Origin: Anthopleura xanthogrammica
Taxonomy: Eukaryota > Cnidaria > Anthozoa > Actiniaria > Actiniidae
Assembly: GCA_964019055.1 (NCBI GenBank)
Contig: OZ025208.1
Span: 374,501-438,500, forward strand
Direction: 5' to 3'
Length of the DNA: 64,000 nucleotides
Positions 14,701 to 62,960 of the stretch are shown here, in pieces; the first letter of the stretch is position 1, and each line of letters begins with the position of its first letter. The translations under genes and the position numbers were made by a program. The notes below the pieces were generated by a model. It made no database searches. It had not been told where the DNA came from and saw only the letters and a program-made list of their open reading frames with translations.

Positions 14701-15901
14701 CAATATTCTAAAAAACACTGTCAAAAATTGAATGACAAATTATATCCGTTTCAAATTGCTTCTCTTTCGAAGTCATTTAGAATTCTTAGACGACAAGTCC
14801 CTTTTTATTAATATTTAATGACTGAAATCACTTGATTGAACTGAAATGAGTTTTTATTTTCTGACGCAGAATAATCAGCTAATAATCAAACTTCCTTTTT
14901 AAAACAAAATATTTAGAAAAGTTTGGATGCCAAGCTGTATTTTATTTTTCTTTCTAGAACAAGTGTATGGATCCCTCACCATGTCAGAACAATGGATCGT
15001 GTTACCCTGACTACGATAACAACGACTATCATTGCGTCTGTAAGCCTGGAATTGAAGGACGAAACTGCGAAATAGGTTAGTATTTTATGATTCAAAGATG
15101 CGTTTGTAGAAAGAATGTAATTTAAAGTTTACAATCCTCGCTGTGAAACAATTACAAATAGGTAAAGAGGCTAAAAGGGAGGAAGGACGTGTGTTTACAT
15201 TCTTGTGTAACAAATCAACAAAAACTCTTCACTTTTATGATTCAGTTTACAGCAACTGTTCGGCGCTTCTCTCTGCTGGCTACACTGCAGATGGAGTCTA
15301 TCACATCGATCCTGATGGACAAGGCTCCTTCCCAGTCTACTGTGACATGACCACTGATGGCGGAGGGTGGACTGTGTTCCAGAAGCGCTTTGACGGCTCG
15401 GTAGAATTCTATCGTGGTTGGCATGACTACAAAACCGGTTTTGGTAGCCTGACTGGTGAGTTTTGGTTGGGCCTTGACAAGATCCACCGACTGACCAAAA
15501 GACAAGTCACATCATTACGTGTTGATCTGGAGGACTGGATGAGCAACACGGGTTATGCTGTGTATTCATCGTTCTCTATCGCTGATGAGAGTGATTTGTA
15601 CCGCTTGAGGGTAGGCGGATACTCGGGTACTGCTGGAGACTCTCTGACAAAAGGGACATTAGCTAAAAGGATCAACAATAACATGAGATTCAGCACATTT
15701 GACAAGGATTTTGACAATACGGATGATAGGAAGTGCGCAGTGACCTACGAAGGCGCCTGGTGGTATAATGATTGCTTTTATACACACCTCAATGGAAGAT
15801 ACATCGAGACCTTGATCCAGAATGATGGTAAAGCAATGGCCTGGTATGGGTTAAAATCGGATTACAGAAGCTTGAAAACCATTCAGATGAAACTGAAATA
15901 G
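8800..15901 (+). CDS. Gene B: secreted PAN/Apple-EGF-fibrinogen-domain lectin-like protein
   Basis: The exons are 8800-9126, 14958-15075 and 15162-15901, phases 0 and 1 as in gene A, for about 394 residues. Exon 1 differs from A at only a few residues. Exon 2 reads CMDPSPC...HCVCKPG. The exon 2 donor is GTTAGT, which makes residue 149 Gly rather than the Cys of gene A. The FReD is intact, with YCDMTTDGGGWTVFQ and EFWLGLDKIHRL. Its C-terminal half differs from A: DKDFDNTDDRKC, WWYNDCFYTHLNGRY and an inserted IQND-like segment. Intron 1 is 5.8 kb and holds a spare truncated exon 2 (12397-12411) and nested transposons. Exon 2 and the DNA just upstream resemble gene C more than gene A. The frame is open, but splicing across this intron is predicted, not observed. 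Confidence 0.8.
11827..11953 (-). mobile_element. tRNA-derived SINE fragment (duplicate)
   Basis: This is the counterpart of the fragment at 4012-4140, carried by the A/B segmental duplication, with the same B-box-like and TGGTTCTCTCCTGTG-like body (one or two substitutions). Confidence 0.6.
12397..12411 (+). pseudogene. Truncated spare EGF exon inside intron 1 of gene B
   Basis: After a good acceptor (polypyrimidine tract, then TTCTAG) the first 15 bases of exon 2 (AACAAGTGTATGGAT) are present. Homology then stops abruptly and TAATTGAATAG-type DNA follows. A complete exon 2 lies 2.5 kb downstream. If spliced in, this relic would soon meet a stop codon, so it is a potential decoy acceptor. 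Confidence 0.8.
13334..13508. repeat. Foldback MITE, family shared with 20447-21148
   Basis: The arms begin CCAGTTCAAAGTTTAAGAAT and run about 80 bases through TGCGCATGCGATTTTATCCC, with a near-perfect reverse complement after a tiny loop. The flanks contain TATAA/TTATA. A second, longer member lies at 20447-21148. Confidence 0.8.
13781..14049. repeat. Second foldback MITE nested in the 1.57-kb transposon
   Basis: CAAATAGACCATTTCACG at the left end is mirrored by CGTGAAATGTTCTATTTG at the right end. The arms continue through CGCTCAACCTCAGCCTCGAT on the left and ATCGAGGCTGAGGTTGAGCG on the right. Confidence 0.75.
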
Positions 15902-22169: not shown

Positions 22170-25014
22170 ATGCACTTGTCGTGGTTCATCCTTTTCGGGA
22201 TTTTTCTTCACAACAATTTTCCTACCGAAAGTAAAACAGTTACTCCTGATAGAGTTGTGGGCGAGGGATTTAAAGGAGATGCTTTTCGTCGAATCACCAC
22301 TCACCTTATCGAGACACACATAGTCAACAAACTTGGCTCGTGTGCCTTCAGATGTTCCAAACACCTTGAATGTTTGTCGTTTAACTTTGGGAATCGTATC
22401 AATGGCAAACACGACTGTCAGTTACTAAGAACAGACAAGTACAACTCAGGATCGTCCTACATTACCAGTACAGACTTCCACTACTTCTATTCTGTGGTAA
22501 GTGGGGATTTCTCCTTGATACTATTACTCTTTGAAATAGCTTTGATGTGATTTTAAATAGTTTGTTGATTTTGGATCATCTTTCTGGGAACACACGGTAA
22601 AGTCACGATTATAGGTCCATTAGTGTACTAACGCAAATATCCTTCAAGTTATCATTCCATCCGCTTCTATTTAGAAACCTTCCCCGAATATAAAGTGTCT
22701 GTCTGTTTGACGGTCGAGAATAGCGGGACAGTTGCAGGATTTTCAAATTTCTCATATTTTGTCAGAAGATACCCTTTCGTAAGCTCTTTCAAAAAATCCA
22801 GTTTAAAACTTCGAGCAAAAACAACTTTTTGAAAATTTGCGAATTTATTTTTGCAAGTTTGAAAATCGACTTTCGGTCTGCCCTGGACAGGTGTGAACAG
22901 CTCAAAATAATAAGACCCATCTTTAAGAAGGCATGGCTCGATCAAAAATATTCCCACTGATCTGATACTTTTTGAACATTTGAATTAGCTATCACATTCA
23001 AAAACCAATGTGAAATATTTTCTAGAAAAGTTTTGTTTTTTGTGTTCTTGGCAATCTTTCTGATGCCATATTCTAAGCAGCTAGAATGCGAATCAAATTT
23101 TAGCCTAGCTAATTTGAATGCCCTTAATTATCATCTAGTATACGTTTTTTTCTCATTAAAACTATTTTCTCTGAAAGCTTGTTTGTTGTACTTTATATCT
23201 TGAAAGTATCAGCCTCGGAACGCAAACGCCTCCCGGCAGCTAAACGACTCTTCGATGTAGCTTTTGGCTTCAGAACAAAAGCGCCCGCTCTATAAATATT
23301 AATGAACTTTCTCCAAATAATAACCGGTTTTGAAACTGAGCAGAAAACACCTGGGCGATATGTTATTAGAGTCCGAAAATATTTTTTCCTGAAAATCTAA
23401 GGTTCCATAAATGACTGTGTGAAAACCCTGTTCTTGGCCCGAAAAAAAACGTTTTTCTTGGCGAAGCGAAAATGTGGACGTATTTTGCTAAAATTTGTAA
23501 AGTCTCGAAATCATGGCTTTTTAAAAGTTTTAACTTACATTAATTTGTAAAAGACGAACGTCGTGAGGCTAAGCCATCCTTGCTACCCCTATCACTTAGT
23601 TCACTGAGTATTTGCCTTTCTGATTCAATTTATAATCACTGGTAAATGAAGGACAAGGAATGGTATTTTAAAACCATGAAATTCCACGAAATATACTTGG
23701 AATACTGCTTCGCGACTACGGCCAATACAGAATATATTTTCTCTCAACTAGCCGCCAATATAAACCTGTATTGGCTCCTCAAAATCGCAACAAGTTATAA
23801 AAATTGTAATTTAGATTTTATATGCACTCCCGTATTGAAAATCAGCTTTGTTGAATATGTTAGCGTGGTAAAATAAATCTTTAAGAATTCTTAGGTGACG
23901 AGTCCCTCGTTATTAATAATTACTGACTGAAATCAATTGATTGAAATAAAATGAGTTTTTAACTTCTGACGCACAATAATCTGCTAATAATCAAACTTCC
24001 TTTTTCAAAGAAAATGTTCAGAAAAGTTTGGATGTCAAGCCGTGTTTTGTTATTGTTTTTCTTTTCTTTCTAGAACAAGTGTATGGATCCCTCACAATGT
24101 CAGAACAATGGATCGTGTTACCCTGACTACGATAACAACGACTATCATTGCGTCTGTAAGCCTGGAAATGAAGGACGAAACTGCGAAATAGGTTAGTATT
24201 TTATTGAAAATGAGTTCGTAGAAAGAATGTAAGTTAAAGTTTACGATCCTGGATATATAATACAATTGCAAATAGGTAAACAGGCTAAAAGGGAGGAAGG
24301 ACGTGTATTTACATTCTGCTGTATAAGAAATCAACAAAAACTTTTCACTTTTATGATTCAGTTTACAGCAACTGTTCGGCGCTTCTCTCTGCTGGCTACA
24401 CTACAGATGGAGTCTATCACATCGATCCTGATGGACAAGGCTCCTTCCCAGTCTACTGTGACATGACCACTGATGGAGGAGGGTGGACTGTGTTCCAGAA
24501 GCGCTTTGACGGCTCGGTAGACTTCTCTCGTAGTTGGCATGACTACAAAACCGGTTTTGGTAACCTGCAGACTGGTGAGTTTTGGTTGGGCCTTGACAAG
24601 ATCCACCGACTGACCAAAAGACAAGTCACATCATTACGTGTTGATCTGGAGGACTGGATGGGCAACACGGGTTATGCTGTGTATTCATCGTTCTCTATCG
24701 CTGATGAGAGTGATTTTTACCGCTTGAGGGTAGGCGGATACTCGGGTACTGCTGGAGACTCTCTGACAAAAGGGACATTAGCTAGAAGGATCCACAATAA
24801 CATGAGATTCAGCACATTTGATAAGGACAATGACAATAGAGATACTAGTAATTGCCCAGCGTCCTTCGAAGGCGCCTGGTGGCATAATGATTGCTTTGAT
24901 TCACACCTCAATGGAAGATACCTCGTGACCCAGCAGGGTGTTAAAGCAATGTGCTGGTATGGGCTCAAATCGGATTACAGAAGCTTGAAAACCTCGCAGA
25001 TGAAATTGAAATAG
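22170..25014 (+). pseudogene. Gene C: PAN/Apple-EGF-FReD lectin-like gene with a 2-nt frameshift
   Basis: The exons are 22170-22496, 24074-24191 and 24276-25014, with the same phases as A and B. Exon 1 starts MHLSW rather than MHLSC and has the same PAN cysteines. The EGF exon is intact (CMDPSQC, HCVCKPGNEGRNC). In exon 3, near 24321-24330, GTATAAGAAATC replaces GTAACAAATC. This net gain of 2 nt leads to a stop at about 24464-24466. Downstream, the FReD frame is fully open from at least 24463 to the stop at 25012-25014, with an in-frame 3-nt gain (NLQTGEFW). It is either a recent pseudogene or a sequencing/assembly error. Start at the FReD methionine (MTTDGG) would lack a signal peptide. Intron 1 (1577 nt) contains repeat X in reverse. 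Confidence 0.75.
22667..23330 (-). mobile_element. Dispersed repeat X, uninterrupted copy in intron 1 of gene C
   Basis: In reverse complement it matches 12430-14635 with the 1.57-kb transposon absent, which defines the empty insertion site. It carries a 96-codon minus-strand frame (22667-22957) similar to the 84-codon frame at 14381-14635, with LLKDGSYYFEL and KELTKGYLLTKYEKFEN. The family is unknown. Confidence 0.6.
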
Positions 25015-30175: not shown

Positions 30176-32364
30176 TTATTTCAGTTTCATCTCGGTGTTC
30201 CTAAAGGCCTGAAAATATGTACCGGTCCACCAGGTTTTCACTCCATTAAGATCAGAAGCACTGCACCAACCATACCACCAACAACCTTCTAGAAACACTG
30301 CACAATTACCACGTGGCCATACATCGTTATCCTTGTCAGGTGTGGTAAACATCATGTTATTACTATCCCAGTCCAGACGATCAGCAATTGTTAAAGCATC
30401 ACCAGCAGTACCTGAGTACCCACTTACTCTCAGGCGGTAAAAATCACTTTCATCAGCGATAGAGAACGATGAATACACAGCATGTTTCTTGTTGCCATTC
30501 AAGTCCTCCAGATCAACACGTAATGATGTGACTTGTCTTTTGGTCAGTCGGTGGATCTTGTCAAGGCCCAACCAAAACTCACCAGTCAGGTTACCAAAAC
30601 CGGTTTTGTAGTCTTGCCAACTACGGTTAAAGCTTACCAAATGGTTGTTGCGTCTTTGGAACACAGTCCACCCTCCGCCATCAGTGGTCATGTCACAGTA
30701 GACTGGGAAGGAGCCTTGTCCATCAGGATCGATGTGATGACTCCGTCTGCAGTGTAGCCAGCAGAGAGAAGCGCCGAACAGTTGCTGTAAACTGAATCAT
30801 AAAAGTGAAAAGTTTTCTTTGGTTTGTTACACAAGAATGTAAACACACGTCTTTCCTCCCCTTTGGCCTGTTTACCTATTTGTAATTGTTTCATAGCGAG
30901 GATTGTAAACTTTAACTTACATTCTTTCTACGAACTCATCTTTGAATAAAATACTCACATTCGCAGTTTTGTCCTTCATTTCCAGGCTTACAGACGCAAT
31001 GATAGTCGTCGTTATCGTAGTCAGGGTAACACGATCCATTGTTCTGACATGGTGAGGGATCCATACACTTGTTCTAGAAAGAAAAACAATAATAAAACAC
31101 GGCTTGGTATTAAAACTTTAATTTTCTAAACCTTTTCTTTGAAAAAGGAAGTTTGACTATTAGCAGATTATTGTGCGTCAGAAGTGAAACTCATTTTATT
31201 TCAACCAAATCGTTTCAGTCATTAAATATTAATAACAAGGGACTCGTCATCTGAAAATTCTAAAGGGTTTCTGAGAAGCAATGTGAAAGCCACATTTTTC
31301 CAGCCAATTTTCGACAGTATTTGGGTATAGTCAGGTCTGTTAGCGACAAAAATAGCAAAGATCGTGCACAAAATGAGATATCAACAAACCATAAACGCCA
31401 TTTTGACATTTTTCCATGTTGGCGTTAAAACTTGAAGGAATTATCTTTCGTTTCATATATTTTTTGATAAAGTTTATCCATCTAGTACAGAGTGTGGCGT
31501 GCCTCCCCTGAACACCATTTTTTGCCAACCACCCCTAAATCTGTTTAGTATGCCCCAACAAACAGGTTTGCCAAGTTTGGTGCTTGTACTCAAACTGAGC
31601 ACGATCTTTCCGCCAACAGACCTGAATAGTATAGGATGAAACCCTTTCAGGATATTGACCAAATCGAATTCCATTGTAAGTACCATTGCTGCTCTTACAG
31701 TCACCATTGATCATAGGTTTTATCAGGAAGGAAAATATTTCGAGTTAAAAATACTGAGTGATCGAAAGTATCGAGTAGGAAGGATAGTTTAGTGTTTAAA
31801 CGTTCATCTCTTAATAGTGTGAATCATACTTTTCCCTACATGAATAAACCTTGTGTCATGTGTTGTTCTAGGCATCTTCCTTTTATTAGTATTTTTTTAT
31901 CCCGCGAAGAAAATTCGTTATCTTTTCAGTGGAATTAATATCTCAAAAGATAACCCGAATTCAACAAACCAACTTGAAATGACATAAAATCTAGACGTTT
32001 CAAAGAGTAATAGTATCAAGTAGAAATCCTCACTTACCACAGAATAGAAGTAGTGCAAGTCTGTACTGGTAATGTAGGACGATCCTGAGTTGTACTTGTC
32101 TGTTCTTAGTAACTGACAGTCGTGTTTGCCATTGATACGATTCCCAAAGTTAAACGACAAACATTCAAGGTGTTTGGAACATCTGAAGGCACACGAGCCA
32201 AGTTTGTTGACTATGTGTGTCTCGATAAGGTGAGTGGTGATTCGACGAAAAGCATCTCCTTTAAATCCCTCGCCCACAACTCCATCAGGAATAACTGTTT
32301 TACTTTCGGTAGGAAAATTGTTGTGAAGAAAAATCCCGAAAAGGATGAACCACGACAAGTGCAT
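30176..32364 (-). pseudogene. Gene D: inverted PAN/Apple-EGF-FReD lectin-like gene with a 2-nt deletion
   Basis: On the minus strand the exons are 32364-32038, 31073-30959 and 30875-30176. Phases match A-C; exon 2 is 3 nt shorter. Exon 1 (MHLSW start, PAN cysteines) and exon 2 (CMDPSPC, HCVCKPGNEGQNC) are intact. In exon 3, near 30737-30741, the text corresponding to GGAGTCTATCACATC reads GGAGTCATCACATC-like with 2 nt missing, so the frame closes at about 30688. The rest of the FReD is open to a TAA at 30176. Its C-terminal half is the most divergent of the four: LTIADRLDWDSNN, DKDNDVWPRGNC, EGCWWYGWC (one extra Cys) and SDLNGVKTWW. It lies tail-to-tail with C. Intron 1 is 964 nt. Confidence 0.75.
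31325..31630. repeat. Solo arm of the 28445-29720 element family in intron 1 of gene D
   Basis: It begins TAGTCAGGTCTGTTAGCGAC and ends near CAACAGACCTGAATAGTAT, with CACCCCTAAATCTGTTTAG and GTGGCGTGCCTCCCC inside. These match the arms of the larger element. It contributes only fragmentary open frames. Confidence 0.65.
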
Positions 32365-36854: not shown

Positions 36855-36951
36855 ACATCATGTCAGGAGGAGAAAAACAAGGATTTTAGCGAGGATTTTA
36901 GCGAGGAATTTAACACAGGAGTGATCAGACATCGACAACAACAACACAAAC

Positions 36952-39900
36952 ATGGCGGACAAAATCATGGAAAATTACACAAAGGATCTAAAAAAGGCTC
37001 GATTTCACGTAGCAGAACTAGAGGAAGTTCTTTCAAGTAGCGACAAACAGGATCTCCAGATGGCTTACGACAAAATATGCGACATTTACAAAGGTTTGGA
37101 TACAGCGAGTACACTAGTAAAGGACGCCATGTTGGACGGGGAAAAACCGCTAGAAGAGGTAAAAGTCTGGTCACAATCTTCTAAAGCAGAGCTAATGCCT
37201 GTTCGTGAGTTAAGAAACAAGTTAAGAGATAAGTTAACTGATCTTGAGAGGAGAGAATTACATCAGAAAGAGGATGATTCGTACAAAAAGAAGCTTGAAT
37301 TTGAATTAGAAGTGATGAGAAAGAAAAGCGAAGAAAAAATGTCTACACCACAAGCTGTTAAATTGCAAAAATACACCATAACACCATTCAAAGGAGATTA
37401 CAAAGACTGGATGAGATTTTGGAATCAATTTGAAGTTGAAGTTGATGGATCAACCATTTCAGAAATTAGCAAGTTTAATTATCTCTTGGAGCTAGTACAT
37501 GGTCAGCCTAAGGAGCATATTTTGGGGCTTCCCCATTCCCCTGAAGGTTACAAAGAGGCCAAGAAAATTCTAGAAATGACCTATGGGAAAGATAATCAAG
37601 TTCACAAGGCCCTGATAAAAGATCTAGAATCATTACCTGCCATAACAAATATTCATAAGATCAAAGAGATTCATGAGTTCTATACAAAGTTATCAAGGAC
37701 TGTTAGAACATTAGCCACTATGAAGAAATTAGATGGATCACAAGCTTTCATCTATAGTATAATGGACAAACTTGGTCCAGTAAGAGAAGTTATGATACAA
37801 AAGGATGACGACTGGGAAAAATGGGGTTTGGAGGAAATAGTGGATCACCTAAGGAGGTATACAGATAGAAACCCATTACCAACAACACATTCGGATACCA
37901 ATACTACAGCATCAAAGAGGTTTACCGGAGACCAGACTACTGATGTGAAGAAAAGAGAGAGAGTTATGATGGCAAGTCCACCCCCACAGCAGTCTGCATT
38001 CACACCCAAAAGTTGTGTATACTGTGACTCTACACACCATGGATCTAAATATTGTGACAAGGTTCTGGACATTGCAAGCAGAAGAGAAACCCTGAAGAAA
38101 AAGAGGTTGTGCTACAATTGTACAAGACCAGGACATTCAGCCTCTAACTGTAAGTCACGTGGTTGTATGAAATGTAATGGCAAACACCATACTTCTTTAT
38201 GTGATAAAACATCATCTACACTTACATCATACACTGAGTCTCAACCACCCAAGGAAAGGTTCTATAGTGTACTTGATGTACAAACCACATTACATGCCAC
38301 AGTGATTGCAAAAGTTAATGGAATACCAGCACGTATAATGTTAGACAGTGGAGCAGGAAGCTCATACATCAGCAGTAACCTGTTAAGTAATCTCAGCATT
38401 AAACCTGCACGTGTTGAAAGGAGAGTCATTGAACAAATGTATGGAACTGTAGACAAAAATGTTGAAATCTTCAAAGTAGAAATAGAGTCTTTCAACTCCC
38501 AAGCAGCATTCAGTATGGATCTCCAGTGCATCAATGCAGAGAAACCAACTTTAACACACTTGCCAAACCCAAATGTCCCAGAGCTCAAGAGCAAGTACCC
38601 ACATTTACACCAGTTAGTATTCAGTGATGAGGATTCTACTCAAGACAGCCTACCAGTACATGTGATTCTTGGTGCTGCTGATTTACTGAGAATTAAGACT
38701 ACAACCGCACCCGTCCTAGGTCAAAACCCAGACACAGATCCAGGTGCAGAGCTCACCCGGCTTGGATGGATTGTTACTGGAAGGTCAGCATTGCCTTCTG
38801 TGGAAGCAGATAAGAGTTTTTTCATGAAGACAAGCTCAGAGGAATTCAAACAAATGTGTTCTCAGGAAGTGTTTGGACTGTCTGATAGCACCAACAACCA
38901 AGACTTGTGTCATGAGGATTTTCAAAATCAAATAAATAGACAGGATGATGGAACATATTCTACTAAGTTGCCATGGAAACCAGATCACCCAGAGATCACA
39001 GAACATAAGGAATTGGCCTTAGCAAGACTCAGAAGTACTACCAATAAGCTCCAAAACATGCATAAGCTTGAAGAATACCACAACATAATGAAGGAACAGT
39101 TACAAGCAGGAATTCTAGAGCCCATACCTGAGACTCCTTCAGGACGAGTCGTGCACTATGTCCCACACCAACCAGTGGTTCGTGAAGAGGCTGAGTCCAC
39201 AAAGTTAAGAATAGTGTATGACTGTTCAGCAAAGAGTAAATCAGAAGAGCCATCACTCAATGACTGCCTCGAGGTTGGTCCTCCCTTACAGCCCATGATC
39301 TTTGACATTCTACTGAGGAACAGAACAAAGAACTTGTGTATTGCAGGGGACATTCAAAAGGCATTCTTGCAAATTCAAGTTGATCCCGAGGACAGGGATG
39401 CACTACGCTTATTATGGTACGACAATTTACAAAGTAAGAACATTGTGACATACCGCTTCACAAGAGTTATATTTGGATCAGGCCCGAGCCCCTATATACT
39501 CGGTGCGACACTTAACAAGCATGTTAGTCAGTATGCTGATAGTTATCCAGAGACAGTGAAGGAGTTGTTAAGCAATACCTATGTGGATGATATACAGTCA
39601 GGTGGTGACAACAAAGAACAGTTGCTGAAATTCAAGAGAGAATCAACAGAGATTATGAAACAAGGAGGATTTCATTTGCATAAATGGCATAGCAACATCC
39701 CGGAAGTTGAAGATCAGTCGACTAATCAAAAACAGTTTGCAAAGACCAAGATATTAGGAATTGCATGGAACAAGAGAGAGGACACCATAGCAGTTGACTT
39801 CACAGCCTGCTTACAGAAGAGTGACGAAGGAAGTGTAACAAAGAGAAAGATGTTGTCATCCATCAATCAAGTATTTGACTTGCTCGGACTAGCTGCGCCG

Positions 39901-42168
39901 GTCGTCATCACAGCAAAGATCATCTACAGCGAAGTGTGCTTAAAGAAGCTGAAATGGGACGACGCAGTACCAGACGATGTCAAAAGAAGATGGAGGAAAT
40001 GGCTTGAAAGCTTGAGAGAATGCCCAGTGATCATTGTACCTCGCAGCGTCGTAAGTACTTGCTTGATCAAGATGACATTGCATGGATTTGCAGATGCTAG
40101 TAAGCTAGCGGTTGCAGTAGCTGTCTATTTGTTGGCGTTCCATAATGATTCTTCAGTTCGTCAGAGTCTTCTTGTTGCCAAATCAAGAATTGCACCAAAG
40201 GACCAGACGATTCCTCGACTAGAGCTCATCGCAGCCCATACACTCAGCAGATTGATTAATCACGTGAAGCATGCCTTGCCAGACCAGTCCATTACAGAGT
40301 ATCATGGATGGGTTGACAGCACTACTGTACTCCACTGGATAGAAGGAAGGGGAACATGGTCTCAGTTTGTACGCAACAGGACAAAAGACATCAAAGACAA
40401 AGAGTACATACAGTGGCATTACGTCCCATCAGAAGAGAATCCAAGCGACATAGGAAGTAGAGGAGCTGCGCCAAGTAAGCTTACACCGTTCTGGTTCGAG
40501 GGACCAACATGGATGAGGAAACCACACGATTGGCCAGACCAACCACACACGTGTGAGACTGAAGATGTCGTGAAGGAAGCTGTGTACAAGAAAGCTGAGA
40601 AGCAACTGTTGGCAAAAGATGAGAAGAAAGAGGAAGGCACATTCGACCTTCTTCTGCAGCGCTACTCATCTTATTGGAAGCTCTTAAGAGTTACAGCATT
40701 CATAAAACGCTTTATCAAAAACTGCAGAGGTGTCAAGCGAACCGGTGTACTAACTACTGAGGAAGTAAATGATGCTGAGAAGTTCTGGATCTGGAGAGCA
40801 CAGTCGTCGCAGGAACTAAAGTCAAATGTGGAGCTACGCAAAGATGCTGATGGAATATGGAGATGTGCTGGAAGGATACCCAACTATCATCCCATCTTTC
40901 TTCCAAGGAAACACCATTTGGCAGTACTTATTATCGGGCAGAATCACGAGAAGACCTTGCATGGGGGAGTATCATCTACAATGTGTCGAGTACGAGAGAC
41001 AATATGGGTACCAAAGCTTAGAGGATTGGTGAAGAAGGTGGTCCATGAATGCAATGTGTGTAAACGCTACAGAGTCTCAGCTCTGTCAGGAGCGTGTACT
41101 TCCAAGTCTCAGCTACCAGAATGCAGATCAGAGCTGACAGAACCATTTGCTGTTACAGGCGTCGACTTTGCAGGACCAATCTATTACAAGACTAGGAAGA
41201 AAGCTACAAGTAAGGCGTACGTTGCACTGTTCACCTGCACAAGCACTCGAGCGGTACACTTGAAGTTGTGCCCCGACTTGTCTGCATTGGAGTTTCAGCG
41301 AGTACTGAAGGAAGTTGTTGCCAGAAGAGGATGTCCAAGGACGATAATAAGTGACAATGGAAAGACATTTGTAGCTACAGGAAAGTGGATCAAAACACTG
41401 AAGAAGGATCAAAGTCTTGCGAACTACATGGCAGCCCTTGACATCAAGTGGAAATTCAACTTAACTCGCGCCCCATGGTGGGGAGGTTTCTTTGAGCGCC
41501 TCATTGGCATCATGAAACGAACACTCTCAAAGGTGATTGGGAGAGGCCTACTTACCTTCCAAGAGCTTGACGAAGTTCTGATTGATACAGAGAACATGAT
41601 GAACAACAGACCACTCACTTATCTTGGAGAAGAGTTTGAACAACCAGTGATAACTCCTAACACTTTGTTGAGAGGGAGACCCAACCCAGTCTTACAGGAA
41701 GACTTAGATAAGCTTCAGGAGGACAGTGATATCTACAAGCGTGTTAAACACATCCAGAAGACCAAAGCAGATCTGAGGAAAAGATTCATCAAAGAGTATA
41801 TCCATGCGTTGGAAGAAAGACAACCTAAGCTTACAGAAGAAGTAGAGAAAGTACCCAAGACCGGAGCTGTAGTACTGTTGAAAGAAGACGTTAAGCACAA
41901 AGCACAATGGAAGCTTGGACGTGTTGTAAGCCAAGTTATTGGTAAAGACAAGAAGGTTCGAGGACTTAAAGTAAAGCTTGGCAACGGTTACCTCGTCGAA
42001 CGCCCACTGCAGTTAGTGTGCCTGTTAGAAGTCGGAGGTGAAGACCCAAGCTGGAAGCCAACTCGTGAGATGATCAACACGACTAGAATTCAACCAAGCA
42101 GAAAGGCAAAGGATAATGCTGTTGACAAGATTAAGCTGATTGCACAGCAAGAGAACATTGACATTTGA
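36952..42168 (+). CDS. BEL/Pao gag-pol polyprotein, 1738 residues, intact
   Basis: One frame encodes the full retrotransposition machinery. In order: an N-terminal gag region (about 1-350); zinc knuckles (about 354-418, including CYNCTRPGHSASNC, a CX2CX4HX4C); an aspartic protease with LDSGAGSS (D465); reverse transcriptase with DIQKAFLQI and the catalytic YVDD (Y877-D880); RNase H with HGFADAS (D1048); an integrase with an HX(n)HX(n)CX2C zinc region (HHLAVL...NVCKRY) and a D1405, D1468, E1515 triad (VDFAGP, SDNGKTF, GGFFERL); then a C-terminal chromodomain-free tail. The order PR-RT-RH-IN and the DUF-like RT/RH linker fit BEL/Pao. The start lies in ACAAACATGGCGGAC. No stop or frameshift interrupts it. 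No envelope frame follows. It should reverse-transcribe in cytoplasmic particles and integrate in the nucleus. Confidence 0.95.
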   Translation: MADKIMENYTKDLKKARFHVAELEEVLSSSDKQDLQMAYDKICDIYKGLDTASTLVKDAMLDGEKPLEEVKVWSQSSKAELMPVRELRNKLRDKLTDLERRELHQKEDDSYKKKLEFELEVMRKKSEEKMSTPQAVKLQKYTITPFKGDYKDWMRFWNQFEVEVDGSTISEISKFNYLLELVHGQPKEHILGLPHSPEGYKEAKKILEMTYGKDNQVHKALIKDLESLPAITNIHKIKEIHEFYTKLSRTVRTLATMKKLDGSQAFIYSIMDKLGPVREVMIQKDDDWEKWGLEEIVDHLRRYTDRNPLPTTHSDTNTTASKRFTGDQTTDVKKRERVMMASPPPQQSAFTPKSCVYCDSTHHGSKYCDKVLDIASRRETLKKKRLCYNCTRPGHSASNCKSRGCMKCNGKHHTSLCDKTSSTLTSYTESQPPKERFYSVLDVQTTLHATVIAKVNGIPARIMLDSGAGSSYISSNLLSNLSIKPARVERRVIEQMYGTVDKNVEIFKVEIESFNSQAAFSMDLQCINAEKPTLTHLPNPNVPELKSKYPHLHQLVFSDEDSTQDSLPVHVILGAADLLRIKTTTAPVLGQNPDTDPGAELTRLGWIVTGRSALPSVEADKSFFMKTSSEEFKQMCSQEVFGLSDSTNNQDLCHEDFQNQINRQDDGTYSTKLPWKPDHPEITEHKELALARLRSTTNKLQNMHKLEEYHNIMKEQLQAGILEPIPETPSGRVVHYVPHQPVVREEAESTKLRIVYDCSAKSKSEEPSLNDCLEVGPPLQPMIFDILLRNRTKNLCIAGDIQKAFLQIQVDPEDRDALRLLWYDNLQSKNIVTYRFTRVIFGSGPSPYILGATLNKHVSQYADSYPETVKELLSNTYVDDIQSGGDNKEQLLKFKRESTEIMKQGGFHLHKWHSNIPEVEDQSTNQKQFAKTKILGIAWNKREDTIAVDFTACLQKSDEGSVTKRKMLSSINQVFDLLGLAAPVVITAKIIYSEVCLKKLKWDDAVPDDVKRRWRKWLESLRECPVIIVPRSVVSTCLIKMTLHGFADASKLAVAVAVYLLAFHNDSSVRQSLLVAKSRIAPKDQTIPRLELIAAHTLSRLINHVKHALPDQSITEYHGWVDSTTVLHWIEGRGTWSQFVRNRTKDIKDKEYIQWHYVPSEENPSDIGSRGAAPSKLTPFWFEGPTWMRKPHDWPDQPHTCETEDVVKEAVYKKAEKQLLAKDEKKEEGTFDLLLQRYSSYWKLLRVTAFIKRFIKNCRGVKRTGVLTTEEVNDAEKFWIWRAQSSQELKSNVELRKDADGIWRCAGRIPNYHPIFLPRKHHLAVLIIGQNHEKTLHGGVSSTMCRVRETIWVPKLRGLVKKVVHECNVCKRYRVSALSGACTSKSQLPECRSELTEPFAVTGVDFAGPIYYKTRKKATSKAYVALFTCTSTRAVHLKLCPDLSALEFQRVLKEVVARRGCPRTIISDNGKTFVATGKWIKTLKKDQSLANYMAALDIKWKFNLTRAPWWGGFFERLIGIMKRTLSKVIGRGLLTFQELDEVLIDTENMMNNRPLTYLGEEFEQPVITPNTLLRGRPNPVLQEDLDKLQEDSDIYKRVKHIQKTKADLRKRFIKEYIHALEERQPKLTEEVEKVPKTGAVVLLKEDVKHKAQWKLGRVVSQVIGKDKKVRGLKVKLGNGYLVERPLQLVCLLEVGGEDPSWKPTREMINTTRIQPSRKAKDNAVDKIKLIAQQENIDI

Positions 42169-45881: not shown

Positions 45882-47229
45882 GTGTTCAAAAGTATGGTGA
45901 ACAGGTCTAAAATGATGAAGATTTGAAATAAAACTTTTGGTCATAAGAATTAGACATTAAAGTCATTACAACACAAATAAAATTTGTTAAGATAAAATTA
46001 GTTTTTGTCTAAGTTTAAATTGATAAAAATAATACATAAATCATAAAATCCACACCAATATACTTCATATCTATGAATAGTAAGTGCAATAAAATGGAAT
46101 TTAGTAGCCATAATTGAGAAAGATGATAACCATTTATAAAGAAAGCTAGAACTATTTGCATAGTTAAATAAACAATGTAAATTTGTGTCATGTGCCTAGT
46201 AACAGCACTCTGTTGAAAGAGGCATACTGAGTAAGATTTAATATATTTATAATATATTATTATATGTTTTTATCCAAACCGTGGACCTTCTCTTCCACTT
46301 GTGATGAAATACAGCATGAGATGGGCATACATTTTTCACTCTAATGTTTACTCTCTTCAGTAATGTGGCAGGGGAGGCTGCTCCTCAAGACCTTTCTTTA
46401 GCGAGGCTTTGGAAATCTGTAATTCCACCAATTCTTTTTCAAGATACGGAAGTCAGATCCTTTTTGGAGGCACTCGTTTTCAGCTTTTTGCAGTCCTCAA
46501 TGCTACAAGTATATGGTCAGTTGAACGTGGTACTAGCATTTGCTCTTGGGCCATGTCATTAGAACTTGTGGTAGGATCCATGTCTGGATTGGTGGCAAGT
46601 TGATCTTGTGGAATACCTACTTCCAGGACAGCATAATCAATCCATTTGCCTCCATGACCTTCCAGGACTGCCATAACTTTAAATCTAACGACTAAGCACT
46701 TTAAGAACTACAGAAAAAACAATATAAAACAACAGTGTGAGCACTATCAAGCACAAGGGAAACTCTGATGCAAGAAGATCAAATTATGATGCTCTCAAGT
46801 TACAAATATTACTGATAGCTAATCTACAAGAGGAGAGAATTAAACATTTTGATGGAGACTCCAAAATAAATCAATAATTTGCTGTACCAGCTTATAAGGG
46901 ATTGGAGAAAAACCAGGTCACACGACAAGTGGTTAGTCAAGCATGGCTAGTGAAGTGCTGCCCAAAGGGCCAGAGCTAGTCATGAAGGTCACCAGGTGCA
47001 GAAACTTGTAGCATGCAGTTGGAGATCCAGCTGGGCCACAGTGCCAGAAGCAGCTGGAATTGCCACAGAGGAGATGAAATTCACTACAGTTGAGGCCTGT
47101 ACAGCTGCCATTGTGGCTTACATGGCTCCTGTCTGAACTGCCAATAGCATTATCAGTGACAACACAGAAGAACCAGAAGCTCTGGTAGATGCCAATGAGT
47201 TGGATTGTGGAATGTTTGGTTGAGCCACC
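45882..47229. other. No confident gene; two GC-richer patches that may be exon relics
   Basis: Patch 1 (46480-46674, minus) has a 64-codon frame including GGKWIDYAVLEVGIPQDQL. Patch 2 (about 47025-47226, plus) reads ATEEMKFTTVEACTAAIVAY with one stop in an otherwise open stretch. Both stand out from the AT-rich surroundings in base composition, but I recognise no family. Confidence 0.25.
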
Positions 47230-47902
47230 AAGGACGACTAAAGAGTCTTCTAAAGCTGACAAGGACGACTAAAGAGTCTACTAAAGCTGACAAGGACGAC
47301 TAAAGAGTCTTCTAAAGCTGACAAGGATGACTAGAGAGTCTTCTAAAGCTGACAAGGACGACTAAAGAGTCTTCTAAAGCTGACAAGGACGACTAGAGAG
47401 TCTTCTAAAGCTGACAAGGATGGCTAAAGAGTCTTCTAAAGCTGACAAGGACGACTAGAGAGTTTTCTAAAGCTGACAAGGATGACTAAAGAGTCTACTA
47501 AAGCTGACAAGGATGACTAAAGAGTCTTCTAAGGCTGACAAGGATGACTAGAGAGTCTTCTAAAGCTGACAAGGATGACTAAAGAGTCTTCTAAAGCTGA
47601 CAAGGACCACTAAAGAGTCTTCTAAAGCTGACAAGGATGACTAAAGAGTCTTCTAAAGCTGACAAGGATGACTAAAGAGTCTTCTAAGGCTGACAAGGAT
47701 GACTAAAGAGTCTTCTAAGGCTGACAAGGATGACTAGAGAGTCTTCTAAGGCTGACAAGGATGACTAGAGAGTCTTCTAAAGCTGACAAGGATGGCTAAA
47801 GAGTCTTCTAAAGCTGACAAGGATGGCTAAAGAATCTTCTAAGGCTGACAAGGATGGCTAAAGAGTCTTCTAAAGCTGACAAGGACAACTAAAGAGTCTT
47901 CT
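47230..47902. repeat. 31-bp tandem array, about 21 units
   Basis: The unit reads GACTAAAGAGTCTTCTAAAG plus CTGACAAGGAT. Variants (GGATGGC, CTAGAG, AAGGCTG) are scattered and clustered. The array abuts the next one with no spacer. Confidence 0.95.
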
Positions 47903-48540
47903 GGTTATGGTTGGACTGATATGATTGTGGTACCTGTAGTGTTGGACATTGGATGATGTTAATGATGTACTGTATACAAGACTGGTTATGGTTGGACTGA
48001 TATGATTGTGGTACCTGTAGTGTTGGACATTGGATGATGTTAATGATGTACTGTGTACAAGACTGGTTATGGTTGGACTGATATGATTGTGGTACCTGTA
48101 GTGTTGGACATTGGATGATGTTAATAATGTACTGTAAACAAGACTGGTTATGGTTGGACTGATGTGATTGTGGTACCTGTAGTGTTGGACATTGACTGAT
48201 GTTAATGATGTACTGTATACAAGACTGGTTATGGTTGGACTGATGTGATTGTAGTACCTGTAGTGCTAGACATTGACTGATGTTAATGATGTACTGTATA
48301 CAAGACTGGTTATGGTTGGACTGATGTGATTGTGGTACCTGTAGTGTTGGACATTGGATGATGTTAATGATGTACTGTATACAAGACTGGTTATGGTTGG
48401 ACTGATGTGATTGTAGTACCTGTAGTGTTGGACATTGGATGATGTTAATAATGTACTGTATACAAGACTGGTTATGGTTGGACTGATGTGATTGTGGTAC
48501 CTGTAGTGTTGGACTTTGGATGATGTTAATGACTGCATCA
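47903..48540. repeat. 81-bp tandem array, about 8 units
   Basis: The unit includes GACTGGTTATGGTTGGACTG, TGTGGTACCTGTAGTG and GATGTTAATGATGTACTG. Its length is divisible by three, which explains the 91-codon minus-strand frame across it. Confidence 0.95.
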
Positions 48541-48930
48541 TAATATTGTATAATACTTATAAAATGTATTTCATAAATTTTGAATGCAATTAAACCTTTA
48601 AATGTAATTTAAATATATGCCAATTTCTAAATAATTTCTCTAAATGACCATACTAGTGTACTCAAACCTGATGTAGCAAAGATGATGATTAACTAAAAAA
48701 TAAACTTTCATACATGAAAATATACCCTGAGGTATGGATAATGAAGCCAATCATCACACAGAAATAGTGTACTTGATATCATTAGCTATTGAAGATTACA
48801 GAGTGCAGAAAAAGAAAGTAACACATGAAATACATGATGAATTATCAATATCCTTAACACAACTCTGTCAATAGCAGTGAATATCAGACTGTACAAAAAA
48901 CAATACATCAATCTGTAAAGCATCTTCAGC

Positions 48931-49290
48931 ATGTGTCAAGTATATTAGAATCATCTAAATATGATGGACCTGATGCAACTCACTATTGAACATTGTACAA
49001 GATACAGAACAAGACAGGAATGTGTCAAGTATATTAGAATCATCTAAATATGATGGACCTGATGCAACTCACTACTGAACATTGTACAAGATACAGAACA
49101 AGACAGGAATGTGTCAAGTATATTAGAATCATCTAAATATGATGGACCTGATGCAACTCACTATTGAACATTGTACAAGACACAGAACAAGACAGGAATG
49201 TGTCAAGTATATTAGAATCATCCAAATATGATGGACCTGATACAACTCACTATTGAACATTGCACAAGATACAGAACAAGACAATAATGC
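48931..49290. repeat. 89-bp tandem array, 4 units
   Basis: The unit begins ATGTGTCAAGTATATTAGAA and continues through GATGGACCTGATGCAACTC. Starts fall at 48931, 49020, 49109 and 49198. It is nearly perfect. Confidence 0.95.
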
Positions 49291-51740: not shown

Positions 51741-51992
51741 GCAACGGTGGCATAGCAGTTAGAACGCTCAACTCTCACCAAGGTGACCTGAGTTTGAGTC
51801 CCACCGGGCTCAGTGTTGTATGTGAGTAGAGTTTCTAGTTGGTTCTCTCCTGTGCTTCGAGGGTTTTAGGTTTTCCGGTTTTCGTCTCTCCACAAAAATC
51901 AACTTTTAAATTCTAATTCGATCATAGAACGAGGGCCACAGGTTTGTTAGCCACTGGCTGTTAAGTGCTACCCTCGTAAAAAACAAGGACAG
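51741..51992 (+). mobile_element. tRNA-derived SINE, most complete copy
   Basis: The head contains an A-box-like GGTGGCATAGCAGTTAGAAC (about 51746) and a B-box-like GAGTTTGAGTCCCACC (about 51790), about 45 bases apart, as in RNA polymerase III promoters of tRNA genes. The body continues TATGTGAGTAGAGTTTC, GGTTCTCTCCTGTGCTTCG and GTTAGCCACTGGCTG. The cloverleaf is degraded, so this is not a tRNA gene. Fragments of the same family lie at 4012, 11827 and 43700. Confidence 0.75.
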
Positions 51993-52321
51993 AATAATCT
52001 TGACATGTTTTGGCATTGCTTATGCCATTCTCAAAACAATGAATATACAGTTCATTACAAATACTATATATAGTGAAATTGATTGACAGATAATATTATA
52101 CTATGATTGATGTTACTATATGACTAATTAGGAATAAAAGAAGTTCACTAAGTGATAAAACTAAGGTAGTCCACATCTTGCACAAGTAAATTCATAAATG
52201 ACAGAGGATTTAAGAGAGTCTAGAATGGGATCCTTGAAGCTGAGAAGATGTTTAATTATAAAAGATACTTGAATCAAATTGGTTTTCATTCCTTAGATAC
52301 TCGATAAGGGCAGCAGAGCAA

Positions 52322-53568
52322 CACAGGGAGCCCACAGGCACTGGTAGAATCAGTGATTAGAATAAAATCTATCATGCGTAAATGCACGTGCTAGCTTTCG
52401 CACGAGCTTTTCAAGTCTGAATAAATTATCAGCTGCTAACGTTGCTAGTGTAGAATATAATGACAAGGGATGAAACTTCAAATGGACCCCTCGAATAAAA
52501 TTGCTTTTAAAAAATCATGAAATGTCTTTTAAGCTTTAAACCTCAAAATTCCGATACTCGAAAAGTTTGTCTAACGTTATGTGAGGACAGAAAAAATCAG
52601 CATGGACTTATGTCTTCAAAAAATGGCAACAAATTAAAATCTTGTTTTCGTTCTATCTGCGCCCCGAGTAAGGGGGGACGGAAGCGGAAATGTAGTCTTC
52701 TAAATTTGACAGGTAGTCATCAAAATCGACGATTTTACTTCCATTCTGCATCTATAATAACTTTCTCTGCATCTATAATAAGCTTTCTCTGCGTATGACG
52801 GGATAGCCATCGCATGTCTCGTCGCTTTGTGCATTTAAAAACTCACAATACTCTTCTTTCATCTTCACAAATGAAAACTCAAATCTTGGGGATAGCAAGG
52901 CCAAGTCTTTCCATTCTAACGTTGTTTGACCGGCTCCAGCCTCATGCTTTTCACATAAATTTCGGTAAACATAGCATCTGTCGTTGCCTATTCTAGAACG
53001 TATTCTTTGGCATTCGAATTCCGGGAAAAGCTTTTTTATAGCTCTTCCTATATTATCAATAGACAAACAGTTCTTCTTATCCGAAGAGTATTCACACTCG
53101 TACTTATTTTGTACGGCCTTCACAGAAGTAAACGTCCCAGGCACTTGGGAGTAATTATCGATAAGCCTGAAAATTCAAATAATTAATGATGTTTTACTCT
53201 GACTTAGTACAGCATAAACTAGACATCTAACGATAAACAACAGCGAGTTACCATTGAATTTCGTCGAACGGTTTGGAAGGAATTTCATTGTTACTGCATC
53301 TTCCATTGTTACTGCTATCCTTTAAACGGAAGACGCTCATTTCCGGTGCTATTGTTCATTTCCGCTTCCGTCCCCCCTTACTCGGGGCGCAGATAGAACG
53401 AAAAATTCTTGGAGTTTCATCCCTTGTCGTTATATTCTACGCTAGCAACGTTAGCAGCTGATAATTTATTCAGACTTGAAAAGCTCGTGCGAAAGCTAGC
53501 ATGTGCATTTACGCATGATAGATTTTATTCTAATCACTGATTCTACCAGTGCCTGTGGGCTCCCTGTG
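52322..53568. mobile_element. 1247-bp long-TIR transposon carrying an RFX-like gene
   Basis: The ends read CACAGGGAGCCCACAGGCAC on both sides in inverse orientation. Each arm matches for about 160 bp with a few substitutions. A further 48-bp block (CGCCCCGAGTAAGGGGGGAC on the left at about 52662) extends the match, with 164 extra bases in the left arm. A perfect 7-bp direct repeat AGAGCAA flanks the element (52315-52321 and 53569-53575). Between the arms the only sizeable content is one two-exon gene on the minus strand. I see no transposase. A 7-bp duplication with CA...TG ends would suit P-like or Dada-like families, but I cannot assign it. Confidence 0.85.
52773..53340 (-). CDS. Small RFX-like winged-helix protein encoded inside the TIR element
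   Basis: Exon 1 is 53340-53252 (29 codons plus 2 nt). The intron is 53251-53167 (85 nt, starts GTAACT, ends ATTTTCAG), and exon 2 is 53166-52773 with a TAG stop. The split codon makes Trp30, and the product is about 160 residues. Residues about 28-100 follow the RFX DNA-binding pattern: EIQWLIDNYSQVPGTF, then NKYECEYSS, then IGRAIKKLFPEF (compare FGKLIRSVFPGL in RFX) and RIRSRIGNDRCYVYRNL. The related D5/primase-type winged helix is an alternative. The remaining 60 residues (KHEAGAGQTTLEWKDL...) are not recognised. The ATG lies a few bases inside the right TIR arm, so promoter and 5' UTR should be TIR sequence. DNA binding, perhaps to the TIRs, is inferred. Confidence 0.7.
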
Positions 53569-53575
53569 AGAGCAA

Positions 53576-61529: not shown

Positions 61530-62960
61530 ATCAGTCAGTGATTGGTGAAGTGTTATTCAATAGATGGCTAGGTGTCAGTTGATGGTTGTATCAGTCAGGT
61601 TGATAAGGTGTCAGTCAGTGATTGGTGAAGTGTTATTCAATAGATGGCTAGGTGTCAGTTGATGGTTGTATCAGTCAGGTTGATAAGTTGTCAGTCAGTG
61701 GTTGATAAGGTGTCAGTCAATGGTTGATAAGGTGTCAGTCAATGGTTGATAGTGTGTGAGTCAGTGGTTGATACGGTGTCAGTCAGTGGTTGATAAGGTG
61801 TCAGTCAATGGTTGATAAGGTGTCAGTCAATGGTTGATAGTGTGTGAGTCAGTGGTTGATACGGTGTCAGTCAGTGGTTGATAAGGTGTCAGTCAATGGT
61901 TGATAAGGTGTCAGTCAATGGTTGATAGTGTTTGAGTCAGTGGTTGATAAGGTGTCAGTCAATGGTTGATAGTGTGTGAGTCAGTGGTTGATAAGATGTC
62001 AGTCAGTGGTTGATAAGGTGTCAGTCAGTGGTTGATACGGTGTCAGTCAGTGGTTGATAAGGTGTCAGTCAGTGGTTGATAAGGTGTCAGTCAGTGGTTG
62101 ATAAGGTGTCAGTCAGTGGTTGATAAGGTGTCAGTCAATGGTTGGTAAGGTGTCAGTCAGTGGTTGATAAGGTGTGAGTCAGTGGTTGATAAGGTGTCAG
62201 TCAGTGGTTGATAGTGTGTGAGTCAGTGGTTGATAGTGTGTCAGTCAGTGGTTGATAAGGTGTAAGTCAATGGTTGATAGTGTGTGAGTCAGTGGTTGAT
62301 ACGGTGTCAGTCAGTGGTTGATAAGGTGTCAGTCAGTGGTTGATACAGTGTCAGTCAGTGGTTGATAAGGTGTCAGTCAGTGGTTGATAAGGTGTCAGTC
62401 AATGGTTGGTAAGGTGTGAGTCAGTGGTTGATAAGGTGTGAGTCAGTGGTTGATAAGGTGTCAGTCAGTGGTTGATAGTGTGTGAGTCAGTGGTTGATAA
62501 GGTGTCAGTCAGTGGTTGATAAGGTGTCAGTCAGTGGTTGATATGGTGTCAGTCAATGGTTGATAGTGTGTGAGTCAGTGGTTGATACGGTGTCATTTAG
62601 TGGTTGGTCAGGTGTCAGTCAGTGTTTGGTAAGGTGTCAGTCAATGGTTGATAGTGTGTGAGTCAGTGGTTGATACGGTGTCAGTCAGTGGTTGATAAGG
62701 TGTCAGTCAGTGGTTGATAGTGTGTGAGTCAGTGGTTGATAGTGTGTCAGTCAATGGTTGATAAGGTGTCAGTCAGTGGTTGATAAGGTATCAGTCAGTG
62801 GTTGATAAGGTGTCAGTCAGTGGTTGATAAGGTGTCAGTCAGTGGTTGATGAGCTGTCAGTTGATGGATGGCAAAGTGTTATTCAATAGTTGGCTAGGTG
62901 TCAGTGGGTGACGCAGTTGCAGTCTGTGGTTTTAGAACTGTCAGTCAGTGATTAGGGAAG
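61530..62960. repeat. 22-bp tandem array of about 1.4 kb with 88-bp higher-order units
   Basis: The unit is GGTGTCAGTCAGTGGTTGAT plus AA. Variants (TGTGTGAGTC, GATACGG, CAATGG) recur in a fixed order of four, for example starting near 61707 and 61795, so 88-bp blocks were amplified. The left edge contains a longer duplicated segment with ATTCAATAGATGGCTAGG. Confidence 0.95.

Follow-up and report, generated by a model that had tools for sequence, protein, structure and literature searches.

The DNA-binding domain usually regarded as diagnostic of P elements is THAP. The Drosophila P element has a single gene and is not known to carry a helicase. Harbinger, which has a Myb-like accessory gene, is an example of a transposon with an extra DNA-binding protein, and the helicase of the AcademH transposons is of another class than the PIF1-like helicase described below. 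The P transposase consists of THAP, dimerisation, HTH and RNase H regions, the last with a GTP-binding insertion, followed by a CTD, and small elements give rise to KP, a repressor of 207 residues (sections consulted of PMC7776569). The lineage described here resembles the P element and KP in its P-type RNase H transposase, in its short internally deleted copies potentially able to code for a repressor and in direct duplications of similar length, but the P element has a THAP finger, 31-bp terminal inverted repeats (TIRs) and an 8-bp duplication (same sections of PMC7776569). Galileo, also of the P superfamily, has long TIRs and mostly 7-bp duplications, as found here, and these features are therefore not new in the superfamily. 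Its TIRs, however, reach up to kilobases, it has a THAP domain, and no helicase is noted in the consulted portions of its descriptions (PMC4168063, PMC3688188). AcademH, a lineage of DNA transposons in animals and fungi, is similar in that it carries a helicase, but differs in its Academ transposase and its 9-10-bp duplications (consulted portions of PMC10045372).

The element under study occupies positions 52322-53568 (1,247 bp) of the window, by which the whole analysed stretch of 64,000 nucleotides from Anthopleura xanthogrammica is meant. Its sequence points to a non-autonomous copy, shortened by internal deletion, from a transposon lineage whose full-length form encodes a P-type transposase with an RFX-type domain (RFX-P) and a PIF1-like helicase, a reading to which we give a probability of about 0.86. 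On the evidence, the RFX gene of the window is what internal deletion has left of a P-superfamily transposase gene, namely exon 1 and a portion of exon 2, which code for the N-terminal part.

The element has inverted repeats and is flanked by a perfect 7-bp target site duplication, AGAGCAA, at 52315-52321 and 53569-53575, in accord with the first-pass annotation. Both arms consist of a single unit of about 212 nt. The outer blocks of 160 nt (52322-52481 on the plus strand and 53409-53568 on the minus strand) are 98% complementary, and the inner blocks of 48 nt (52645-52692, plus, and 53357-53404, minus) are 100% complementary. The left unit, which begins with the family terminus CACAGGGAGCCC, is interrupted between its blocks by 163 extra nucleotides (52482-52644) that the right arm lacks and that other copies have too. 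The earlier figure of 160-220 bp for the arms is therefore right.

The gene lies on the minus strand and its product has 160 residues. Exon 1 (53340-53252) starts with the ATG at 53340, 16 nt from the right inner block, and exon 2 (53166-52773) ends with the stop codon at 52775-52773, 80 nt from the left inner block. The predicted 85-nt intron is present at 53251-53167, has GT-AG borders and falls within a Trp codon. The protein ends in ...PVIRRESLL, past the internal-deletion junction. The stretch between the stop codon and the left arm (52693-52772), opposite the RFX start, is unique; in the longer copy L010 a scrap resembling a helicase start is present more internally at this end, and it is gone from the window copy.

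An RFX-type winged helix had been recognized in this product by pattern only, and two kinds of evidence now agree with it. The Pfam profile RFX_DNA_binding matches residues 28-101 (52953-53259, minus strand, split by the intron) with an E-value of 7e-6 and 27 bits, which is at the curated cut-off of 27. A structure model of exon 2, built from 6 sequences, has a mean pLDDT of 62, with block means of 71-85 in the first 80 residues; Foldseek places RFX5 first (E 9.8e-4, probability 1.00) and RFX1 second (2.7e-3, probability 1.00), and 482 weaker matches rank below them. Searched by sequence against the PDB, the protein finds RFX1 (1dp7; E 0.0025) and RFX5 (0.3) as its only solved relatives. The TIR contains one GTTGCT that matches a half-site of the RFX X-box; chance may give as many.

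The assembly searched comprises 289.8 Mb in 125 contigs. The 160-nt TIR gave 388 first-look candidates, and the 40 that were scored are 97-100% identical. A degenerate 23-mer, allowed up to 2 mismatches, finds 381 termini (196 + 185) compared to 0 for the reversed control pattern, and a 32-mer of the window subfamily, with up to 1 mismatch, finds 170 compared to 0. These matches are not due to chance. Nineteen complete copies, two of them from one tandem array, were inspected for duplications: 15 have a perfect 7-bp duplication, two a 6-bp one (L017, L024) and two a 7-bp one with one mismatch (L013, L028). The window family thus shows the 7-8-bp target duplication of the P superfamily. An empty site was found for the copy L022 (C4:14270636-14271381). 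Its flanks, joined with one copy of the duplication, match a plus-strand repeat copy at 51837-51982 of the window with 87% identity over 150 columns, extending 26 nt past the junction; the site is paralogous. In this test 18 copies were compared only with the sequence stretches of this analysis, and L022 alone is clean. The matches of L010 and L020 span the junction too, but involve repeats of their own flanks and a gapped match of 68%. Further copies, an empty site and a significant winged-helix match, by which the first-pass annotation was to stand or fall, have thus all been found.

The family contains several different internal-deletion forms, and the start codon varies between its subtypes. 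The window form is about 1.2 kb long. In a longer form (L010, L009) the RFX reading goes on, with PVIRTVRVYKN... in place of PVIRRESLL. In a third form (L013, L014) RFX is gone and the following part is kept. Forms of 746 bp and of 273-316 bp, in which the RFX gene was neither found nor would fit, have also spread. Three long copies, of 4.8 kb (L009), 3.3 kb (L011) and 9.0 kb (on C19), were considered as autonomous candidates and rejected, as their extra length consists of unrelated insertions; these presumably represent a LINE-like ORF, Penelope-like ORFs and another DNA-transposon-like ORF. The C19 copy (L065/L026, C19:6224426-6233431) is a window-type copy split by about 7.8 kb coding for another DNA-transposon-like protein.

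Two local arrangements were also observed. Five window-type copies form a tandem array at C1:20224853-20251532 (L018) with a spacing of 6.3-6.4 kb, apparently the result of segmental duplication after one insertion. At C13:3923933-3936744 the window TIR bounds three elements of 284 bp each, spaced by about 6 kb, which are probably MITEs in a tandem duplication.

The same genome contains a second element of 9,244 bp, C2:22428531-22437774, bounded by perfect inverted CACAGGGAACCCGGC termini. Its TIRs, of 239 and 274 nt, are 86% identical, and the termini CACAGGGAACCCGGCTTCAATACG lie at C2:22428531 and C2:22437774. With up to 3 mismatches allowed, 91 termini of this type are counted genome-wide, against 0 for the control, and short pairs are found among them. 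The element consists of two convergent genes, each beginning near one TIR. The model of the transposase gene has 7 exons and encodes 887 residues without a stop, and all of its introns are GT-AG. Pfam identifies a P-type RNase H core in this gene: TNP-like_RNaseH_N (PF21787) matches residues 441-588 with an E-value of 7.4e-11 and 42.9 bits (cut-off 24.6), and TNP-like_RNaseH_C (PF21789) matches residues 822-845 with 6.5e-4, below the cut-off. RFX matches residues 36-113 with 2.9e-4, also below the cut-off. No THAP domain is found by Pfam in the 887 residues, and the same scan does detect THAP in another locus of this genome, L075. Exon 6 (HNLKKLRNNI...) lies at the place expected for the GTP-binding insertion. 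Other P-type loci can be aligned with it, but Pfam gives no significant match for this exon; phmmer finds no match between the core and solved P transposases. The predicted protein is read as a P-superfamily transposase with an RFX-type N terminus where THAP is usual. The lineage has its winged-helix profile and fold in common with the RFX transcription factors, but differs from them in that the full-length gene joins this domain to a P-type core.

A duplicate of this element lies nearby. The stretch C2:22428531-22455562 (L066/L060/L059, L067, L068) consists of two 9,244-bp elements around an 8,544-bp stretch; only the ends of the second copy were read. The two flanks of each copy mismatch each other, as do the inner flanks, but CTTCATC is found at both outermost flanks. 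By its flanks, the element-spacer-element arrangement looks as if it had moved as a composite unit.

Relatives of the transposase were sought in a collection of 5.8 billion proteins. Three metagenome proteins, P0002-P0004, are 53, 46 and 67% identical over the aligned part, and their RFX matches (E 0.061, 0.0014 and 0.00035) are all below the cut-off. P0005, from Ptychodera flava, combines in one chain a WLLDNY-type, RFX-like start recognized by eye with PF21787 (6.1e-9). Pfam finds no RFX match in P0005-P0007, of which P0006 and P0007 come from Paramuricea clavata. Within the genome, the N terminus of the L063 transposase has RFX as its sole Pfam match (0.0024, below the cut-off). The N terminus of L061 is not matched by Pfam RFX, and that of L062 was not found. 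Clear TIRs of L063 were sought and not found, nor was the right end of L061 found in the downstream sequence examined.

These genes bear on two other origins of the RFX gene. According to the first-pass annotation, it could be an accessory gene for a TIR-binding protein, in the manner of Harbinger's Myb-like gene, the transposase being encoded separately. The RFX gene is indeed the sole gene of the window copy. However, in the 9.2-kb element a single gene model, its exons intact, spans both RFX and the P core, and the hemichordate P0005 has its WLLDNY-type start and PF21787 in a single chain, so that, unlike in Harbinger, the DNA-binding domain belongs to the transposase; a separate accessory gene is very improbable. 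The other origin, a host RFX gene captured by an unrelated transposon, would agree with the ranking of RFX1 and RFX5 as the sole solved relatives by sequence and the top two by fold. Their identity to the window protein is about 25% in the structural alignments, however, and the RFX domain is found at the N terminus of divergent P-type transposases, both in this genome and in the metagenome relatives. A recent capture is not borne out, and the chance that these sequences reflect any such capture appears close to negligible.

The second gene of the 9,244-bp element encodes a PIF1-like helicase (PIF1, 2.3e-35) that is divided between a frame of 281 residues and one of 688, which are presumably joined by an intron. 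The two genes occur together again at divergent loci. The helicases of L063 (PIF1, 2.1e-19) and L062 are 36% and 37% identical to it, and that of L061 lies 24 kb away. The association was examined in a neighbour test with a window of 30 kb, in which all 67 rows of the core search (36 places) and all 47 rows of the helicase search (39 places) were used. Places were called RFX-P-type if their core was split by exons in the same way or if identity was high, and not by RFX itself, since only the C2:22.43-Mb gene and L063 gave an RFX match. These places are C2:22.43 Mb, from which the query was taken, its duplicate, C1:21.98, C6:12.65, C19:5.65 and the relic C2:385796, which was included by its 68% identity. 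All 6 of them have a convergent helicase downstream at a distance of no more than 30 kb (5 being independent, and one having given the query). Among the other places the figure is 1 of 30, a weak 99-nt fragment 28.4 kb off at C15:1899569; a same-strand helicase occurs at two of these places, at 8.0 and 27.1 kb. The chance of a helicase neighbour per locus was estimated at about 0.0003-0.0016 for 5-25 kb. A 963-residue frame resembling a retroelement polyprotein was also seen at the far end of C19:5648800-5661300 (L063 + L069), beside the divergent RFX-P/helicase pair.

Several observations tie the window element to this two-gene lineage. The first 12 nt of the window family equal those of the 9,244-bp element except for one A/G change (CACAGGGARCCC); past these 12 nt only short matches exist between the two TIRs. 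The exact window terminus, CACAGGGAGCCC, recurs at L061:539, 745 bp before exon 2 of the third related gene. The first intron falls inside the Trp codon, in the same position and phase, in the window (IQ-W-LIDNY) and in the transposase genes L059 (TI-W-LLRNF) and L061 (KL-W-LFKNY, exon 1 having been read by eye). Residues 2-187 of the extended family protein, which has 190, match the frame at C2:22436672-22437241 with an E-value of 1.2e-13, and a genome search with this protein finds, beyond the family and older relics, two equal-scoring places on C2 with an unbroken 373-residue frame. L009, which contains one stop, is 32% identical to the N terminus of the transposase over 164 columns.

At the opposite end, older or longer relatives of the window copy retain weak traces of a helicase start. 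In L057 a helicase-like start, FTEEQQRAIEQ...GVGKSFLISCIYKSLF, lies opposite the RFX gene and matches AAA_30 with 3.3e-4, below the cut-off. L053 and L054 have weaker helicase-like scraps, one piece of L054 being without any Pfam match. In L010 the sequence FTEEQQRAIDLVI, an oppositely oriented scrap resembling a helicase start and without a Pfam match, lies beside the deletion junction. By tblastn the helicase scraps in the window relatives have E-values of 0.08-0.7. A peptide close to the far TIR, MQNGSKIVDFDDYLSNL, was considered as the C terminus of the transposase; this interpretation was dropped because the peptide has no match in the 9.2-kb transposase and the scraps at that end are helicase-like. 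Because the older relatives have helicase-like starts, the window family most likely derives, judging from these fragments, from a two-gene parent with the RFX-P transposase at one end and the helicase at the other, the middle having been deleted. The window element has the N-terminal part only and no P-type catalytic core, as befits a deletion derivative. The autonomous relative with exactly the window's TIR that the first-pass annotation called for was looked for in the assembly, and no full-length copy combining the CACAGGGAGCCCACAGG TIR with a P core was found there; the link is a cousin sharing the 12-nt terminus.

The first-pass annotation also suggested a non-autonomous element, mobilised in trans and carrying its own TIR-binding factor. 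The element is non-autonomous and therefore presumably moved in trans, and binding to the TIRs is plausible, but on the evidence a stand-alone accessory gene is not what the element carries. By analogy with P-element biology, the RFX-P transposase would bind the TIRs via its RFX domain and its P core would cut and join, also moving window-type copies in trans. The helicase may aid excision, gap repair or replication. If made, the 160-residue protein would have the DNA-binding part but lack the catalytic core, and may compete for TIRs as KP does.

The odds are roughly even that the RFX reading frame of the deletion copies is instead an inert leftover, the copies moving because they keep both ends. 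The 746-bp and 273-316-bp forms without RFX have spread as well, and motif search finds no complete gene in 9 of 21 copies, although one of the nine (L025, on C10) escaped the motif and contains an open frame of 150 residues. For the RFX coding sequence, 8 older relics, of which 3 contain stops, give dN/dS values of about 0.4-1.1 and show no clear constraint; the ratio is uninformative on selection because relics mix master evolution and decay, and by these values constraint appears weak. On the other hand, the ATG and splice sites, together with an exon 2 that is open throughout, are kept in 12 of 21 copies, or in 8 of 17 if the five-copy C1 array is counted once, and seven of these encode an identical protein, although the copies that keep the gene are young.

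By analogy with KP, window-type copies may instead code for a repressor, an RFX-only protein that would occupy TIRs or poison multimers of the transposase; this is a tentative proposal, a little short of even odds. KP is the product of a small, internally deleted P element that codes for the DNA-binding end of the transposase (sections consulted of PMC7776569). Correspondingly, the intron of the window gene is intact and the stop codon follows soon after the deletion junction. The window protein stops, however, before a long helix of the transposase (residues 290-339 of the 373-residue frame, in a low-confidence model) that is taken for a dimerisation coiled coil, and KP-like dimerisation is therefore unsupported. 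Overall, the inert leftover and the repressor are about as likely as each other.

The genome also contains a P element of the THAP type (C2:2406457, L073/L075), the core of which is 31% identical to the RFX-P core. It differs from RFX-P in having THAP upstream (L075, Pfam, 2.2e-6), in having the RNase H match in one long frame where RFX-P has introns, and in lacking a convergent helicase within 30 kb. A motif scan of the upstream stretches of L074 and L076 shows no convincing THAP. Nothing on RFX or a helicase in P transposons was found among the literature matches listed, which mostly exclude subscription papers and Repbase, and RFX occurs 0 times in the main text of PMC10027918, on factors derived from transposable elements. 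As far as could be seen, RFX in place of THAP and a recurring helicase are new in the P superfamily, and this branch of P-element transposons is apparently undescribed.

With RFX on a P catalytic core, and with a helicase as recurring partner, two questions become open to testing: how transposases swap their DNA-binding domains, and whether a transposon-coded helicase helps P-type excision or gap repair. RFX joins the DNA-binding folds of mobile DNA, which may be a source or a sink for animal RFX-like genes. It is possible, though we would put it at somewhat less than an even chance, that there is an ancient animal lineage of two-gene P transposons, with an RFX transposase and a dedicated PIF1 transposition helicase, whose RFX-only deletion products regulate the family. 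If so, control by internally deleted P-type copies would have arisen with a DNA-binding domain unrelated to THAP.

The rest of the window contains other repeats and genes. Four ORFs with the motif TTDGGGWTVFQ, which we take to be fibrinogen-domain-like, lie at 4747-5532, 15110-15901, 24289-25014 and 30176-30796; they form a local gene cluster, and 71-bp tandem arrays follow two of the four. The unbroken ORF of 1,747 residues at 36925-42168 presumably encodes a polyprotein of the BEL/Pao type. Tandem arrays occur at 47229-49283 and 61531-62861, with units of 31, 81 and 89 bp, and of 22 bp in about 54 copies.
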